A stretch of DNA of 64,000 nucleotides from Rossellomorea aquimaris TF-12 (lineage in GTDB: Bacteria > Bacillota > Bacilli > Bacillales > Bacillaceae_B): assembly GCF_001648555.1 (NCBI RefSeq), contig NZ_LQXM01000025.1:62001-126000 (forward strand), written 5' to 3'. Below the pieces are notes generated by a model that saw nothing but the letters and a program-made list of their open reading frames with translations, was not told the DNA's origin and ran no database searches. This document shows, piece after piece, positions 1-57,210 of the stretch (positions are counted from its first letter, which is position 1; every line of letters starts with the position of its first letter). The translations under genes and the position numbers were made by a program.

Positions 1-1175
1 AGGATTGGTGGCTATTTTTCGAGAGTCTATTAAAGCAAGAGGATCTAGAGTTACTTGAAAGACAACCATACTTAATGGACGTCCATGTACAGAACATCAC
101 CAAACGGTTTATGAAGGAAGCTCCCTTTGAACGCGAATGGAAGCCTCTTTATCAGCTGTTTGCCACCCTGTTTCTGTCCATTCATATTGATTTATATTTA
201 CAGCAACGGAAAGTTGACTTAAATCGTGAGCAGTATAGCATGTACGATTTTCTCCTGGGTGAAATGGAGGAAGCCGTGGAAAAGCTGTCGATTCATGCCA
301 TGCCATTCAGCTTTGATCCGTATATTGCTTTTTTGAAAAAGAAAACCGTTGAAATGAGTGACTCTCAGGAACAAAGCACTCTGATGAAGGCGGAGGTTTA
401 TCGATTCCTTTGGTATTATTTGTTCAAGCAAAAATCTTGGCGTAAAGATGAAGTAGCGAGATTAGAAGAAAGTTCGGAACAAGATTCTGCCTTCTATCAA
501 GTAGCTCTTCTACATCAATATCTACTTTTAGAGGATCTTGATAAAGCCAGCCATGTGGTGGACAACTTAGGAACTGAACTCGTAACCTATTCTGAATTTT
601 GGCTAAGAAAATTTTTCGTAGGAAAACGGTATGAGGTTGGATTCTTTCTTGTGAAAAATATTTTATCAAGAATGCCTGATTATATTGGTCAGCTAGATTA
701 TTATGAAGCGACACGCTTTGTCCGCTGGTTTGTGCGTGTATTGCCGATGGACTGGCTGATGGAAAAGGATCGAGGTCTGGTCAATGAGCTCCTTCTTTCT
801 ATGCTCCCGTATAGCTTCTTTACGTATAATGAATATTTGATTAACGTGAAAGCCTACCGTGAGTGGGTTGAGCTTCAGAAATATATGAGCTACTCCATTC
901 AGGAAATGGATGGGATGGGTTTACGCGATGTATACAAGGAAGCACCTGAGCTTGCTCTTCCTATTTATTATACTGGTGTGCTGAATGCCATTGAGCAAAA
1001 AAACCGTGACAGCTACAAGCTGGCCGTTCGTTATATGAAGAAAATTAGAACCATCTATAAAAAAACAAAGCAGACGGATAAATGGGACGTCTATTTAGAC
1101 TATATTTTAACTCGGTACAAACGATTGAGAGCATTTCAAGAAGAATGCAGAAAGGGTAAGTTAATCGATGCTTAA
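1..1175 (+). CDS. C-terminal part of a SWIM zinc-finger-type protein (YwqB-like), 5' truncated
   Basis: The reading frame is open from base 3 through the first ATG at 75, so this is the C-terminal ~390 residues of a gene that begins before the window. No catalytic or zinc-binding motif is visible in this part; the sequence is helical and rich in aromatic and charged residues. The assignment rests on context: it overlaps the SNF2 helicase by 8 bp, and in B. subtilis and relatives ywqB, a SWIM-domain protein, lies directly before ywqA. The SWIM zinc-binding motif would be in the missing N-terminus. The overlap implies translational coupling with the helicase and a shared role, probably on nucleic acid. 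The family call is inference. Confidence 0.6.
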   Translation, partial: DWWLFFESLLKQEDLELLERQPYLMDVHVQNITKRFMKEAPFEREWKPLYQLFATLFLSIHIDLYLQQRKVDLNREQYSMYDFLLGEMEEAVEKLSIHAMPFSFDPYIAFLKKKTVEMSDSQEQSTLMKAEVYRFLWYYLFKQKSWRKDEVARLEESSEQDSAFYQVALLHQYLLLEDLDKASHVVDNLGTELVTYSEFWLRKFFVGKRYEVGFFLVKNILSRMPDYIGQLDYYEATRFVRWFVRVLPMDWLMEKDRGLVNELLLSMLPYSFFTYNEYLINVKAYREWVELQKYMSYSIQEMDGMGLRDVYKEAPELALPIYYTGVLNAIEQKNRDSYKLAVRYMKKIRTIYKKTKQTDKWDVYLDYILTRYKRLRAFQEECRKGKLIDA

Positions 1176-3996
1176 ACTGTCTTCCGTAAAAATCAATGTC
1201 AGCACAACTGAATATGAAGACCGTTTTTTCATTACAGCTGAAAATGCTGATGGAGAACGCTTATCACCGACGGAATGGAAAAACCAGCTGTTTCTTTGGC
1301 ATGAAGAAAGCTATTACGGAACTCTCTTGCAAGACTCTATAGATGAAAAAGGGATTGTCGTAACCAAATGGCAGCTCCTTACTTTGCTTGCCGGTGAGCA
1401 TTTCAGCTCCATGATCCAATGGGATTGGGATGAAACAGGTCAGGCCTGTATTGCCATTGCTCCTGTTATCTATGAATCCATTGAAGCTGGACGCTGGCTG
1501 CCCCGATTCGAAGAGTGGCAGGAAAAAGGACTGCAATTTCACATTCCTGAGGAAGTTTGGTCGAATTTTAATGATGAGTTTTGGGAGGAGGAGCTTCCTG
1601 GTGGAGGTCCGTCCCTCAAAGAACTTACTTCTGATTGGTTTCAGGGTGCTCTGAATGAGGCGATGGCGGTTGGTGGTTCGAGTGCGATGAAGCGAATTCA
1701 GAGGTTGAAGGAAAGCACGTTGACGTCTGAGGAGCTGGATGCGTATTTTGATGAAAAGCGTTGGAGTGAATGGATCGCTGGTGAGGATGAAGAGCTTCCT
1801 TTTTCCATGGGGCTTCGAATTACTGAGCCACTTGATGAGGATGAATCGTGGCAGCTTGAAACGATTTTACGTGACCGCAAGAAAACCAATCGCGTTATTT
1901 CATTAGCTGAAGATACAGTTCCTGTTGCTTGGAAAAACCATTTACCAGAGGTTCGCGAAGAGCAGGAACGCTGGATGAACATGATGCCTTTGTTGCGTGA
2001 TGGGGATGGTTCCCTGCGAGACGCTCTTGGTGAACAGGATGCCTGGGATTTTCTATCTGTGTTAAGCGAGAAATTCATCGATTTGAATATAGAGATTCTA
2101 TTACCGTCCTGGTGGGAAGCCATGAAGGATGCCCAAGTTCTCGTAAAAGCAAAACTAAAAAACAGCGATACAAGCTATCGTCCATCCTTCGTCGGTTTAA
2201 ATGCCATGCTCGATTTTGATTGGCGATTATCTATGAATGGCGTCACTTTGTCAGAGGATGATTTCAACCAGTTAGTGGATGATCAGCGACGACTTGTGAA
2301 AATCCGCGGTCAGTGGATGAAGCTGGACCCTGCTATGATTCGCCGAATTCAACAAATGATGAGTAAAGCGAAGGAAGAAGGATTTTCGATTCAAGATATG
2401 CTTGAGCAGGAGCTTGTTCCCCGTGACTCTGATGAGCCTGAAATCGAAGCTGATGACGACTATGATCCGTTTGCATACGCCCGTATTCAGCTGGAATTGA
2501 ATCGTTCTATGAAAAAGATGATTCACCAGCTTACAAATGTGTCATCGATTCCGCTAACAGAAACCCCCGATGCATTTCAAGGAGAGCTCCGTCCCTATCA
2601 GCAGCTGGGGATGAGCTGGATGCTATTTTTACGTAAGTATGGTTTCGGAGCTTGTTTAGCAGATGATATGGGACTTGGTAAAACCGTTCAATTGATTACG
2701 TATTTGCTTCATATAAAGGAAACAGAAAAGCCGGAAACACCTTCCTTAATTATCGCTCCTACTTCCGTACTTGGAAACTGGCAGCGTGAGATTGAGAAAT
2801 TCGCTCCTGAGTTGAAGGTCCATCTTCATTACGGACCTAATCGTTCAAAAGAAGAAGGATTTTCAAGAGATATTAACGAAATGGATATCGTTCTTACCTC
2901 TTATGGGTTATCACATATTGATTTTGAAGAGCTCTCACAAGTGGATTGGACCTCGATTTCTTTAGATGAAGCGCAAAATATTAAGAATTCGAACACGAAG
3001 CAATCCCGTGCAATTCGAAAATTAAAAGGAAAGCATCATATCGCCTTAACAGGGACACCTATGGAAAACAGACTATCGGAATTATGGTCCATCTTTGATT
3101 TCCTGAATCATGGATATCTCGGCGCGTTTACACAGTATCAAAAAAATTATATTGCTCCTATTGAGAAGGATGAGTCTGAGGAGAAAGTAAAAGAGCTTCA
3201 GGCTAAAATCAAACCGTTCCTACTGCGTCGAACGAAAAAAGACCCGGAAGTAGAATTGAACCTTCCTGAAAAAATCGAGCAAAAAGAATACTGTCACTTA
3301 ACGGCTGAACAAGCCGCTCTCTATGAGCAATTGGTGCAGGAAACCTTATCTCAGCTTGAAGCATTGAGCGGATTCGAACGAAAAGGATTAATCCTCCAAA
3401 TGCTAAACAGGCTAAAACAATTATGCAACCACCCTGCTCTTTATTTAAAAGAGCCTGACCCTAAATCGATCTTATCTCGTTCAGAGAAAATGCAGAAATT
3501 AAAGGATATTGTGGAAGTAGCCCTGGAATCTGGAGAAGCGTGCTTAATCTTCACCCAGTACATTTCCATGGGTGAAATGATTCAAGAAGTAATGAAGCAG
3601 GAATTCAACGTAGATGTTCCATTCTTAAATGGAAGCATGCCAAAAGGAAAGCGTGATGAATTAGTCGAGAAATTCCAAAACGGCGAATTCCCCGTCTTCC
3701 TTCTGTCTCTAAAAGCTGGAGGAACGGGACTTAACCTAACCGCCGCCAATCACGTTGTCCACTATGACCGCTGGTGGAACCCAGCCGTTGAAAACCAGGC
3801 AACCGACCGAGCCTACCGAATTGGACAACAACGCTTCGTCCATGTCCACAAGCTTGTCTCATCAGGCACTCTCGAAGAAAAAATTGATGCCATGTTAGAG
3901 AAAAAACAAGCCCTAAACGACGAAATCATCAGAAGCGACCAATGGGTTACTGAATTGTCTGATCAAGACTTGGAGTCGTTGTTGGTGTTGGAGTAA
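1168..3996 (+). CDS. ywqA: SNF2-family DNA-dependent ATPase/helicase (YwqA)
   Basis: A 942-residue Swi2/Snf2 ATPase. Residues 1 to about 440 form the N-terminal region seen in bacterial SNF2 proteins. Helicase motif I (ADDMGLGKT) begins at residue 498, motif II is DEAQ at 600-603, motif III is LTGTPMENR, and motifs V and VI (AGGTGLNL and ATDRAYRIGQ, starting near residue 878) close the C-terminal lobe. Such proteins translocate on duplex DNA and remodel bound complexes; the cellular target is not known to me. The ATG overlaps the preceding gene by 8 bp with AAGGG upstream. Codons near residue 147-150 (GGPSL) contain the 12-mer AGGTCCGTCCCT that recurs across the window. A strong terminator made from the same 12-mer follows. 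Confidence 0.95.
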   Translation: MLKLSSVKINVSTTEYEDRFFITAENADGERLSPTEWKNQLFLWHEESYYGTLLQDSIDEKGIVVTKWQLLTLLAGEHFSSMIQWDWDETGQACIAIAPVIYESIEAGRWLPRFEEWQEKGLQFHIPEEVWSNFNDEFWEEELPGGGPSLKELTSDWFQGALNEAMAVGGSSAMKRIQRLKESTLTSEELDAYFDEKRWSEWIAGEDEELPFSMGLRITEPLDEDESWQLETILRDRKKTNRVISLAEDTVPVAWKNHLPEVREEQERWMNMMPLLRDGDGSLRDALGEQDAWDFLSVLSEKFIDLNIEILLPSWWEAMKDAQVLVKAKLKNSDTSYRPSFVGLNAMLDFDWRLSMNGVTLSEDDFNQLVDDQRRLVKIRGQWMKLDPAMIRRIQQMMSKAKEEGFSIQDMLEQELVPRDSDEPEIEADDDYDPFAYARIQLELNRSMKKMIHQLTNVSSIPLTETPDAFQGELRPYQQLGMSWMLFLRKYGFGACLADDMGLGKTVQLITYLLHIKETEKPETPSLIIAPTSVLGNWQREIEKFAPELKVHLHYGPNRSKEEGFSRDINEMDIVLTSYGLSHIDFEELSQVDWTSISLDEAQNIKNSNTKQSRAIRKLKGKHHIALTGTPMENRLSELWSIFDFLNHGYLGAFTQYQKNYIAPIEKDESEEKVKELQAKIKPFLLRRTKKDPEVELNLPEKIEQKEYCHLTAEQAALYEQLVQETLSQLEALSGFERKGLILQMLNRLKQLCNHPALYLKEPDPKSILSRSEKMQKLKDIVEVALESGEACLIFTQYISMGEMIQEVMKQEFNVDVPFLNGSMPKGKRDELVEKFQNGEFPVFLLSLKAGGTGLNLTAANHVVHYDRWWNPAVENQATDRAYRIGQQRFVHVHKLVSSGTLEEKIDAMLEKKQALNDEIIRSDQWVTELSDQDLESLLVLE

Positions 3997-4015: not shown

Positions 4016-4053
4016 GAGGGACGGACCTTGGGAGGTCCGTCCCTCGATTTTTT
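4016..4053 (+). terminator. Rho-independent terminator of ywqA, built from the AGGTCCGTCCCT repeat
   Basis: The arms at 4016-4028 and 4033-4045 are perfect 13-bp inverted copies of GAGGGACGGACCT around a 4-base loop, followed by a T-run. The stem is two copies of the 12-mer found elsewhere in the window. Confidence 0.85.
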
Positions 4054-4069
4054 CCCGCGAAGTGAAGTT

Positions 4070-4195
4070 TGCACATTTTGGTTGGTTTTTCGCACATTCT
4101 TTGTTTGGTTTCGCACATTCTTGGTGGCTTTTCGCACATTTATAGCCGCTTTTCGCACATTCTTTGTTTATTTCCGCACATTCTCAATCCCATGC
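4070..4195. repeat. Array A: CGCACATT repeated every 21 bp
   Basis: The word (T/C)GCACATT occurs at 4070, 4091, 4112, 4133, 4154 and 4175, exactly 21 bp apart, each followed by a different T-rich 13-bp spacer. The array begins 17 bp past the ywqA terminator. The open frames across it on both strands are by-products of a period divisible by three. Confidence 0.9.
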
Positions 4196-4231
4196 CCCGA
4201 TTTCTCTACTCACTCCTCTACTAATACACCT

Positions 4232-4333
4232 GAATTGGGCCACTTTGAGTTAGAATTTGGCCAGAATCCTGAGGAATTGGGCCACTCTTCACATTAATTG
4301 GGCCACTTTCCAGACGTATTGTGCCAAATTGTG
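4232..4333. repeat. Array B: GAATTGGGCCACTTT-like word every 21 bp
   Basis: Variants of GAATTGGGCCAC start at 4232, 4253, 4274, 4295 and 4316, exactly 21 bp apart, with the last copy most degraded. The array is in the same 21-bp register as array A although the word differs (4238 = 4070 + 8 x 21). Confidence 0.85.
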
Positions 4334-4341
4334 AACAACAC

Positions 4342-4373
4342 AAAAAAACGCCGGCTCCTAAAGAAGCCGGCTC
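4342..4373 (-). terminator. Terminator of the ssb transcription unit
   Basis: GCCGGCT (4350-4356) pairs with AGCCGGC (4365-4371). The seven A residues at 4342-4348 give a U-run on the minus strand. It lies downstream of the small ORF that follows ssb. Confidence 0.85.
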
Positions 4374-4703: not shown

Positions 4704-5069
4704 TTAAAACGGGATTTCGATTGGTTCCTTTTTTGACTGTTCAGGAGCTGGTTTGCTGTCTAGGAATCTAACGGATTCGGCTACTACTTCCGTTACATAG
4801 GTTCGTTTACCTTGGTCGTTTTCGAAGTATCTTGTTTGAATTCTACCGGTTACTCCAATCACTGATCCTTTCCGACAATATTTTTCCGTGTTTTCTGCTG
4901 TTTTGTTCCATAAGGTGCAGAGCACGAAATCTGTGTCAATCTGACCCTGCTGGTTCCTGAATTGTCTGTTTACAGCAACAGCAACATTCAAAACAGTTTT
5001 TCCATCTAATGTTTTTCGAGCTTCTGGATTTTTCGTAAGCCTTCCAACTAGAGTCACTTGGTTAATCAA
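4704..5069 (-). CDS. ssbB: Single-stranded DNA-binding protein (SsbB/YwpH-like)
   Basis: 121 residues with one OB-fold, from MINQVTLVGRLTKNPE through the VTGRIQTRYF and VAESVRFL strands. It coats single-stranded DNA. Its position next to ywpF matches B. subtilis ywpH (ssbB), the competence-linked paralogue, not ssbA in the rpsF-rpsR operon. The linker and tail are very short and end EPIEIPF, so only a weakly acidic version of the usual DDDLPF partner-binding tip is present. The start is TTG at 5069 with GGAGA about 13 bases upstream; the alternative GTG reads into a stop. A 57-aa ORF follows in the same transcript. Confidence 0.9.
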   Translation of the reverse strand: MINQVTLVGRLTKNPEARKTLDGKTVLNVAVAVNRQFRNQQGQIDTDFVLCTLWNKTAENTEKYCRKGSVIGVTGRIQTRYFENDQGKRTYVTEVVAESVRFLDSKPAPEQSKKEPIEIPF

Positions 5070-6388: not shown

Positions 6389-6493
6389 ATTATTTCCCTC
6401 CTAAAATACATTAAACGTATTCCAGGCAATCCAGCCGCCCTAGTATTATATGTACTTAACTTCTAATTCCAATGAAGTAACTATCTATTTATG

Positions 6494-6575
6494 TGAGTTA
6501 GCACTAATACAGTAGACCTGTGACTTTGCGTCCCTACCTTTCAATAGGTTTGCCTTTGTCTGCCCCTTGTCTTTA
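6494..6575 (-). promoter_or_regulatory. c-di-GMP-I (GEMM-I) riboswitch aptamer in the sinI leader
   Basis: Read on the minus strand, GGCAAACC (6554-6547) leads into a CCTATT/GGTAGG stem capped by a GAAA tetraloop (6542-6539), then GGGACGCAAAG (6534-6524) and a second helix region around CACAGGTCTAC. These are the conserved joining strands and tetraloop of the GEMM-I class. A consensus -10 (TATAAT, 6592-6587) lies just upstream. The next gene is sinI, about 105 nt downstream. No clear terminator lies between, so the expression platform is not resolved. A second promoter-like pair (TTGGAA, 16 bp, TATAAT) near 6446-6473 lies between aptamer and gene. Confidence 0.8.
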
Positions 6576-20999: not shown

Positions 21000-21133
21000 G
21001 AATTTTATATAGTTGGGGGATGTTTTTCTTTTGAGAGTCATGAAGCTCACTTTCCGCTCTAAATAGCCTATTTTATTGAGGAAGGATGAGAAACCTCTTA
21101 CTGTTATATAAAAAACGAGCCGACTTCCACCAT

Positions 21134-21228
21134 AATCAATCCGATTTGGGGTGTAATCGAGTCAGTTTACCTAGTAATCAATCCATTCCAAACTGAAATC
21201 GATCCAAAACTTTCAATTATCGATCCGT
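21134..21228. repeat. Array C: AATCGATCC/AATCAATCC every 21 bp
   Basis: Words at 21134 (AATCAATCC), 21155 (AATCGAGTC), 21176 (AATCAATCC), 21197 (AATCGATCC) and 21218 (TATCGATCC), exactly 21 bp apart. It lies between the murAA terminator and the spoIID promoter. Confidence 0.88.
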
Positions 21229-21257
21229 TTTCCAATTCTATACAAACACACCGTAAA

Positions 21258-34956: not shown

Positions 34957-35036
34957 TGAAGAGGGATTGTATTGTTGATGAAGGTTAAGATTGGTTGATT
35001 TTTCGGGGGTGTGTGTTTGTCGAAAAATCGGTAGCT

Positions 35037-35131
35037 CGCTGATATATTTCGAATTTCGCTCGATAAATTGAGAATTTCGCTGATATATTTGTTTTTTCGC
35101 TCGATAAATTCCAGATTTCGCTGATATATTT
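35037..35131. repeat. Array D: alternating CGCTGATATATTT / CGCTCGATAAATT, 41-bp dimer period
   Basis: CGCTGATATATTT at 35037, 35078 and 35119; CGCTCGATAAATT at 35057 and 35098. Each word repeats at exactly 41 bp, so successive CGCT words are 20 or 21 bp apart. It lies between the ywlG terminator and the glyA promoter. Overlapping open frames are by-products. Confidence 0.88.
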
Positions 35132-35280
35132 CTTCGGCCCTCACAAAAAGCATGGAATCTCCATTTGGAATCAGACAACTCTCCCATTAATGCTTAATTA
35201 GCTATGTATTCTCTATTAATTAATATGAAAAACAGCTATTTTTCATAAAAATATGGAGTTTTTGCCCCAATCCTGGGTCC

Positions 35281-44001: not shown

Positions 44002-44127
44002 CGGATTGGTTTGTAGCTGGATTGGATTGATTATCGTCGTTTTCGGCTAGATTTTGGTGGAAATCGGATCGTATTTCTCGTAAATCGGACCTATTTTAAC
44101 TATTTTCGGATCGATTCCCCACGCAAA
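44002..44127. repeat. Array E: CGGATCGATT-like word every 21 bp
   Basis: Words at 44002 (CGGATTGGTT), 44023 (TGGATTGATT), 44044 (CGGCTAGATT), 44065 (CGGATCGTAT), 44086 (CGGACCTATT) and 44107 (CGGATCGATT), exactly 21 bp apart. It lies between the lipoprotein gene's hairpin and the prfA leader. Confidence 0.88.
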
Positions 44128-45835: not shown

Positions 45836-46056
45836 TTCTTTTCATCTCCTTCCGCCCTGAATCATCTGAAACAGAGTAATTTATTACGAGATATATGCGA
45901 TATGAGCATAAGCATGAGAGTTATAGCCAGCCCCTTACCGCATCCAATTTTAAAAACACATTGATAATAGTATAACAAGGACAAGTGATTTTTGCAACCT
46001 ACTAAATGGAAAATTAGCGATCACTTTTTCACTTGAAATGGAATCCGATTTACAGC

Positions 46057-57046: not shown

Positions 57047-57210
57047 TTGATAATAAACGTATTCTATTGAAAATAAAGATTAGAACTTATTAATAACCAC
57101 ACAAAGTTGCCTATAAAAGCGAGACAACTAATTTAGTTGAAAATAAAAATGCCCGTCTTGATAATAAATGTCGAAAAGCTGATAATTACTCTTCAAAACT
57201 TGATAATAAA
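57047..57210. repeat. Array F: TTGATAATAAA every 20 then 21 bp
   Basis: Words at 57047, 57067, 57087 and 57107 (20-bp steps), then 57137, 57158, 57179 and 57200 (21-bp steps). TTGATAATAAA is exact at 57047, 57158 and 57200. Located between the icmF terminator and the small membrane protein gene. The remaining 56780-57046 shows no gene. Confidence 0.88.

Follow-up and report, generated by a model that had tools for sequence, protein, structure and literature searches.

The stretch of DNA under study, a 64-kb window of the 4.04-Mb genome of Rossellomorea aquimaris TF-12 and a small sample of the arrays of that strain, contains two rows of short words between an SNF2-family helicase gene and the convergent gene for a single-strand binding protein (SSB), each of which rows adjoins a terminator, and further arrays at other places. 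The features are the following:

1168..3996, + strand: SNF2-family helicase gene, 942 aa, 5' of the arrays (Pfam SNF2-rel_dom, E 5.6e-70)
4018..4053, + strand: hairpin terminator GGGACGGACC..GGTCCGTCCC plus a T run; GGGACGGACC is also a dispersed palindromic repeat
4068..4184, - strand: array A, six copies of TTTCGCACATT (AATGTGCGAAA on the - strand) in 21-bp steps
4232..4327, + strand: array B, five copies of ATTGGGCCAC and variants in 21-bp steps
4327..4336, + strand: fixed end motif AATTGTGAAC, one helical turn past the last array-B word
4342..4371, - strand: terminator of the facing gene, an A run plus GCCGGCTCC..GAAGCCGGC (by eye)
4704..5069, - strand: SSB gene, downstream of the arrays (Pfam SSB, E 4.6e-32)
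21133..21230, + strand: array C, TAATCRATCC-like word, 21 bp, five copies by eye and three by scan
35035..35132, + strand: array D, five copies, TTTCGCTGATATATTT (20 bp) alternating with TTTCGCTCGATAAATT (21 bp)
about 44040..44117, + strand: array E, TCGGAYC-like word, 21 bp, some four copies by eye and three by scan
57137..57210, + strand: array F, four copies of a TTGATAATAA-like word, 21 bp

The arrays of the window

The original prediction counted at least five loci with six words, and arrays A to F are indeed six arrays at five loci. It also placed the array-A word six times at exact 21-bp steps, and the spacing was borne out: the shared GCACATT core starts at 4071, 4092, 4113, 4134, 4155 and 4176, each step being exactly 21 bp; but the word itself, CGCACATT, is exact in five copies, the first, at the left end of the array, being TGCACATT (variant TTTGCACATT). 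Likewise, the five copies claimed for array B at 21 bp are present, but GAATTGGGCCAC is exact only at 4232 and 4274, the other three copies being variants. The further proposal that the two arrays lie in one continuous register had to be abandoned, in that they have different words and opposite polarity, and nothing shows a common register. The fixed end motif of the sister arrays is present in array A in a degenerate form, and array D has TTTGTCGAAAAAT at its left side.

The phased arrays are real and far beyond chance, and to that extent the original observation is confirmed in part. In the first 10 kb of the window, where exact 7-mers at a constant lag of 12–40 bp were searched, the longest run comprised six copies; shuffling the entire 64 kb 60 times by dinucleotides gave a longest run of two copies (56 shuffles) or three (four shuffles). 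Strand folding of four window arrays in six folds gave z values from -1.5 to +2.2, not beyond the shuffles, and an Rfam search over the window arrays returned no match; elsewhere in the window Rfam recognized a c-di-GMP-I riboswitch at 6422–6564 and an L31 leader at 45846–45876.

Frequency, word families and placement

We counted noncoding arrays in 847 kb of TF-12 (the window, 384 kb picked mostly from the surroundings of array loci, and 400 kb that fill in contig C29), an array being counted if at least four copies of an 8-mer, with no more than one mismatch, recurred at a lag between 12 and 40. The count of 26, in which one place is entered twice (L027 and L028, on contigs C2 and C14) and array D is hidden by the ORF mask, comprised 22 arrays of period 21, three of period 20 and one of period 25, no such array occurring at any other lag in that range. 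Contigs C2 and C14 both carry the same array with its flanking genes, and the estimated contamination is 9.56%; the two together might reflect a duplicated assembly or a mixed strain.

The autocorrelation check that had been proposed with the original prediction (a local-identity threshold, with expectations from shuffles) revealed a strong excess at lags 20 and 21 in the TF-12 genome and in the genus, so that the prediction withstood it. Of the 412 gaps in the array-enriched TF-12 sample, 38 passed at lag 21 (1.2 expected) and 13 at lag 20 (1.0 expected); in the C29 filling, which was not chosen for arrays, the respective figures were 13 and 7 of 199 gaps (0.0 expected each), and 18 of the 199 intergenic gaps in those 400 kb had a 20- or 21-bp periodicity. 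Among 272 gaps of 22 related loci of the genus, lag 21 was found in 19 (1.0 expected) and lag 20 in 14 (1.2 expected), lags 18 (12 gaps) and 25 (16 gaps) being raised as well. For the other families of the order, with 171 gaps, lag 21 was found in four (0.4 expected), a number equaled by lags 12, 17, 18 and 29 (four each); the scan alone therefore shows no special peak there, and the evidence comes from single arrays, built on different words, that turned up in three such families (TTCGGTAA, G063; TTTATGCGT, G039; TGGTCGATAAA, G081). Four genomes sampled at 40–60 kb yielded no array with four copies. On contig C1 of G039, at about 702900–703600 (L181:3923-4595), lie 26 matches of the TTTATGCGY type with far more homogeneous spacers, beside which no special neighbor gene was seen by eye.

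The words, which the original prediction had taken to be different at each locus and locus-specific, proved on the scale of the genome to be specific to families and species. The array-A word CGCACATT forms arrays at some 14 TF-12 places (grouped by hand from the listed matches, C14 being left out as a repeat of C2), and the array-B word at ten, by the same hand grouping of listed matches, in both instances with at most two mismatches; at that tolerance TF-12 has 61 CGCACATT pairs at 21 bp versus one for a reversed control. Among the 35 other congeners CGCACATT was found in none (at most one mismatch), and exact CGCACATT pairs occurred in three of 299 genomes of the order: TF-12 and two with one pair each. 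Arrays of TGACGCAAT are present in 19 of 36 congeners and absent from TF-12, and GGGCCAC-type arrays are present in nine of 36, TF-12 included (at most two mismatches), with TGGGCC prevailing in G020, TGTGCC in G021 and G029, and both in G004. The spacers are mostly unrelated among the CGCACATT places; in the listed matches, shared spacers occur only at rRNA-type loci, in one duplicated contig stretch and in one tandem duplication. Near-identical arrays lie at four TF-12 contig ends, on C13 and C29 behind 5S rRNA, and on C15 and C17 presumably behind 5S rRNA too.

The motif AATTGTGAAC is fixed at one end, one turn past the last word, in CGCACATT, GGGCCAC and TTTATCCGT arrays, the opposite end fading to degenerate copies (by eye). 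There were 33 motif-bearing rows, 29 of them with a known neighbor, and the motif faced a gene 3' end in 26, a count to which convergent sites contribute by design; automatic detection placed a terminator behind the motif in 8 of the 33, by a criterion that was too strict. With respect to gap orientation, 81 arrays were distributed as 27 convergent, 50 codirectional and 4 divergent, the corresponding background being 40, 172 and 72 gaps in TF-12 and 54, 167 and 69 in the genus loci. Arrays are thus rare in divergent gaps (4/81 versus 72/284, P = 2e-5) and enriched in convergent ones (27/81 versus 40/284), in counts that omit eight further arrays at edges or coding masks, enter orthologous loci repeatedly, and draw on loci partly picked for their arrays. 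At the codirectional loci of three families, the polarity bias relative to the genes was weak (25:12, P = 0.047) and was carried by GGGCCAC (12:3 after removal of orthologues by hand, P = 0.035), the ratios for CGCACATT and GACGCAAT being 3:3 and 7:5. The genes neighboring 40 TF-12 arrays or fragments were ordinary, as judged from translations by eye and from four proteins through Pfam, and at the loci inspected no dedicated partner gene flanked by 21-bp arrays was seen.

Conservation of words, phase and sites

A comparison of orthologous spacers, also proposed at the outset, left the prediction standing in that the arrays hold their phase while the spacer letters drift. In 15 pairwise comparisons of orthologous arrays the words matched at 592 of 623 positions and the spacers at 591 of 733, with the words higher in 14 and one tie; in the seven less redundant comparisons, which were picked after the fact, the figures were 265/277 versus 272/343 (Fisher P = 5e-10). 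A position was scored as word if either sequence matched, which procedure introduces a slight bias in favor of words. In those seven comparisons the flanks were 84% conserved, so that the spacers lie near the flank level and the words above it. The preference of the original prediction for selection on words in helical phase over slippage is accordingly well supported, by the lag excess as well as by the orthologue comparison; its reading of the words as protein-binding sites on one face stands as regards the phased selection, but the binding protein is something that we only infer.

The GACGCAAT arrays enable a closer view of that phase. Of 103 intervals between neighboring exact words, 99 measure 20 bp (43 instances) or 21 bp (56), and four measure 40–41 bp. 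The 20-bp spacers have 87% A+T (a mean of 1.6 G+C) versus 61% (a mean of 5.1 G+C) in the 21-bp spacers, which difference in G+C holds between 40 and 51 distinct units (Mann–Whitney P = 2e-13), and unlike-length neighbors number 56 of 84 versus a within-array shuffle mean of 46.3 (P = 0.003). In solution the helix of A-rich DNA has a tighter twist, so that two turns then take fewer bases; that the shorter spacers are AT-rich therefore fits a selection on helical angle and not on base count. A crystal dinucleotide table did not reproduce this twist compensation (690.8 versus 721.7 degrees), and the argument consequently draws on solution data for A-tracts. In the 20-bp TTTATCTGCC arrays of L061 the spacers are mixed and not AT-rich (by eye). 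The 101 neighbor steps of the GGGCCAC type comprise 84 at 21 bp, four at 42 bp (skipped units) and one at 20 bp; nine at 25 bp and one at 61 bp belong to palindromic repeats of L041, L043 and L048, and those of 22 and 68 bp to a scattered group in L166.

One and the same site may hold different words in different species. At the site behind a pyridine-nucleotide oxidoreductase gene—read in 19 relatives, with any match at all in 26 congeners besides TF-12—the TF-12 word is AATGTGCGAA (also written AATGTGCGAAA), that of G004 and G020 is TTGGGCCAC, and that of G029, G021 and G002 is TTGTGCCAC; all six arrays have the same polarity and end in AATTGTGAAC near the terminator of the gene, G021 with the variant AATTGTTGAAC. 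G022 has ATTGCGTAA (ATTGCGTAACTTT) there, on the same strand and without the end motif, and G007 a TTGTTCCAC-like word; in others of the relatives read the array is down to one or two units, is degenerate, or is absent. The helicase–SSB spacer was followed through 22 loci, retrieved by means of the helicase protein and labeled Rossellomorea or Bacillus (20), Niallia (one) and Cytobacillus (one). GGGCCAC/GTGCCAC arrays occur there in five relatives and GACGCAAT arrays in another five; two loci have a remnant of two copies, three have a long inverted repeat, and in seven no array was recognized by eye, so that an array can be dispensed with at any one such site. In this spacer a palindrome near TTTACAAGTATAATTGTAAA was seen by eye, beside the array or close to it, in L029, L030, L031, L036–L039, L045 and L046. 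At yet another spacer, some members of the genus have TTTATTTTCAA and TTTATTATCGA arrays, and others have palindromic 25-bp arrays. Behind the 5S genes, TF-12 has CGCACATT with GGGCCAC (in the two operons shown), and GACGCAAT arrays occur in G004 (four operons) and G020 (one).

Interpretation and comparison with known systems

At the level of sequence, the arrays are characterized by the 20–21-bp step, by conserved words among drifting spacers, by an end motif common to three word families, by an intergenic placement away from divergent promoters that includes rRNA operon ends, and by same-site words that differ between species. We read the arrays as phased rows of binding sites for a putative fast-evolving DNA-binding protein, and assign to that reading a probability of about 0.55. 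Each array would consist of asymmetric sites on which a sequence-specific protein might assemble head to tail on a single side of the double helix, with one protomer per two helical turns; the specificity of the protein would evolve along with the words, and the several words per genome might then correspond to several paralogues or specificities. Because of the position of the arrays, a boundary function at the 3' ends of transcription units also comes into consideration, although we hold it to be doubtful: an assembled row behind a terminator could block stray RNA polymerase or insulate the neighboring units. We tentatively entertain, at not quite even odds, a broader proposal in which the Bacillales would possess genome-wide phased polar arrays behind genes and rRNA operons, recognized by a predicted family of fast-evolving binders whose specificity would be exchanged from one species to another on an unchanged scaffold of site, polarity, end motif and two-turn step.

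If the proposal is true, about a tenth of the TF-12 intergenic gaps would hold binding arrays for an as-yet-unnamed factor, the in-place exchange of words would offer a natural test bed for studying how a DNA-binding protein shifts its specificity together with that of dozens of target sites, and the arrays at gene ends and rRNA operons would point to a role in boundaries or packaging.

Among the other explanations, a REP-like system would have a domesticated transposase-like enzyme, with a word of its own, write and maintain the direct 21-bp repeats, much as RAYT enzymes are thought to write and keep REP palindromes. RAYT (Y1_Tnp) genes are present in 36 of 36 congeners (1–7 matches each), the species-specific repeats GCCTGTTAAAT, CAGCTGCTGAA and GTGCCAGGCAC flank some of them (L235, L240, L243, L246, L248, L250 and L251), and the dispersed intergenic placement is a common trait. 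Nevertheless, a scan of 20 fetched RAYT loci, two of them from TF-12, gave six arrays at five loci (L235, L243, L246, L248 and L251), all of period 25 and none of 20–21, and the 21-bp arrays thus do not belong to this type of RAYT repeat; the 21-bp words, moreover, are non-palindromic, and the intact TF-12 RAYT has look-alikes (by eye) in the congeners from which CGCACATT is missing. We consider this explanation unlikely. That the arrays should be selfish or neutral tandem repeats, duplicated in place and spread by chance without function, would agree with the common spacers that adjacent units sometimes have (for example, in L160 and L161), with copy numbers that differ between orthologues, with the 26 word matches of the G039 array, and with a spacer conservation near that of the flanks; yet the words outlast the spacers, one word recurs at some 14 places among mostly unrelated spacers, and slippage leaves unexplained both the 20- and 21-bp steps tied to spacer G+C and the different words at one site, all of which renders such an origin improbable.

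An element of DNA mechanics, in which phased A/T tracts bend the DNA around gyrase or a nucleoid protein at places where positive supercoiling accumulates, namely 3' ends and rRNA operons, would account for the two-turn phasing, for the A/T tracts beside each word, and for the arrays in convergent gaps and at rRNA ends; but bending alone needs no exact, genome-wide word of 8–10 bp that differs in sister species, and we judge it quite improbable. The 12:3 polarity of the GGGCCAC family to the preceding gene is what might be expected if read-through transcripts carried repeated sites for an RNA-binding protein or a small RNA; the two other families, though, have no strand preference, the window arrays gave neither an Rfam match nor a folding signal, and helix phasing has no role in RNA, so that an RNA-level element has hardly any likelihood.

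As for named systems, we found no published description of 20–21-bp phased intergenic arrays in Bacillaceae in the literature accessible. The STAR elements of Staphylococcus resemble the arrays, according to the accessible part of the source (PMC3532100), as interspersed intergenic direct repeats with locus-specific spacers, at several loci per genome that differ between species; but their consensus, T(G/A/T)TGTTG(G/T)GGCCC(C/A), is a single GC-rich sequence of 14 bp, with at least 40 bp of recurrent sequence between copies, and that same part mentions neither a 20–21-bp helical step, nor a fixed end motif, nor an exchange of words at one site. With words of 8–10 bp spaced at 20–21 bp, the arrays are not STAR elements. 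The stoperators of mycobacteriophages, in the portions available of PMC6550527 and PMC9283540, are asymmetric dispersed 13-bp sites, the consensus of which varies among relatives in step with the repressor; asymmetric sites with a consensus varying between relatives are found in the arrays as well, but according to those portions stoperators are bound by a known protein, oriented with transcription, located in phage genomes, and not in phased rows. We reject a stoperator or phage origin in view of the location of the arrays in chromosomal gaps and of viral repeats that read unlike the host arrays: four scans of viral contigs gave 5, 4, 17 and 3 stretches (29 in all, of which 19 were wholly within ORFs, one partly, and nine outside), and the 11 that were read were coding, had shared spacers, or resembled unrelated iteron-type repeats. 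On two viral contigs (L230:1972-2029 and L229:4931-4989) GGGCCAC repeats some 20–31 bp apart have shared spacers and resemble unrelated iteron-type repeats.

Iterons of plasmid origins are direct repeats that recur on the same face of the helix after about two turns; they form one origin per replicon beside a rep gene, whereas the arrays occupy many chromosomal places. REP/BIME elements with RAYT are likewise dispersed intergenic repeats, but, as far as the sources available describe them, are palindromic and RAYT-linked, in contrast to the non-palindromic arrays with their step of 20–21 bp versus the period of 25 at RAYT genes; membership was rejected, since the four window arrays folded showed no hairpin signal beyond shuffles and the arrays found at the scanned RAYT loci had that other period. 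Some DDE transposon ends begin with TTGT, as do several array end motifs; transposon ends and MITEs were rejected, since one site holds arrays across several species and the spacers are rarely shared. The loss of the array in L044 resembles an imprecise deletion (by eye), and no target-site duplication was seen by eye at the few loci considered. CRISPR was rejected on account of repeats of 8–10 bp and spacers of 10–13 bp versus some 20–40 bp in CRISPR, and coding repeats (21 bp being seven codons) on account of the location in gaps and of one family mixing 20 and 21. The TAACTGA repeats of Beggiatoaceae are also intergenic direct repeats in many sets per genome, but, according to the accessible part of PMC4679880, lie, in the main genome, mostly just upstream of start codons, with the same heptamer in distant lineages.

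The occurrence of 21-bp arrays and 25-bp RAYT arrays in one genus suggests a division of bacterial intergenic repeats into two mechanistic classes. In another Rossellomorea subclade, arrays of GAGCCTGGCTC, GTACCTGGTAC and GTGCCTGGCAC (L041:7877, L043:18186, L040 and L048) have a period of 25 where measured, and at one spacer of those arrays relatives have 21-bp arrays in place. The dispersed palindrome GGGACGGACC/GGTCCGTCCC has 14 matches in the window (at most one mismatch) versus 0.9 expected, with sites at 1606, 4018, 4034, 8166, 13175, 15005, 24041, 33536, 34946, 38342 and 42674, and at 4018–4043 it constitutes the stem of the terminator; similar hairpins were seen by eye upstream of look-alike RAYT genes in several species.
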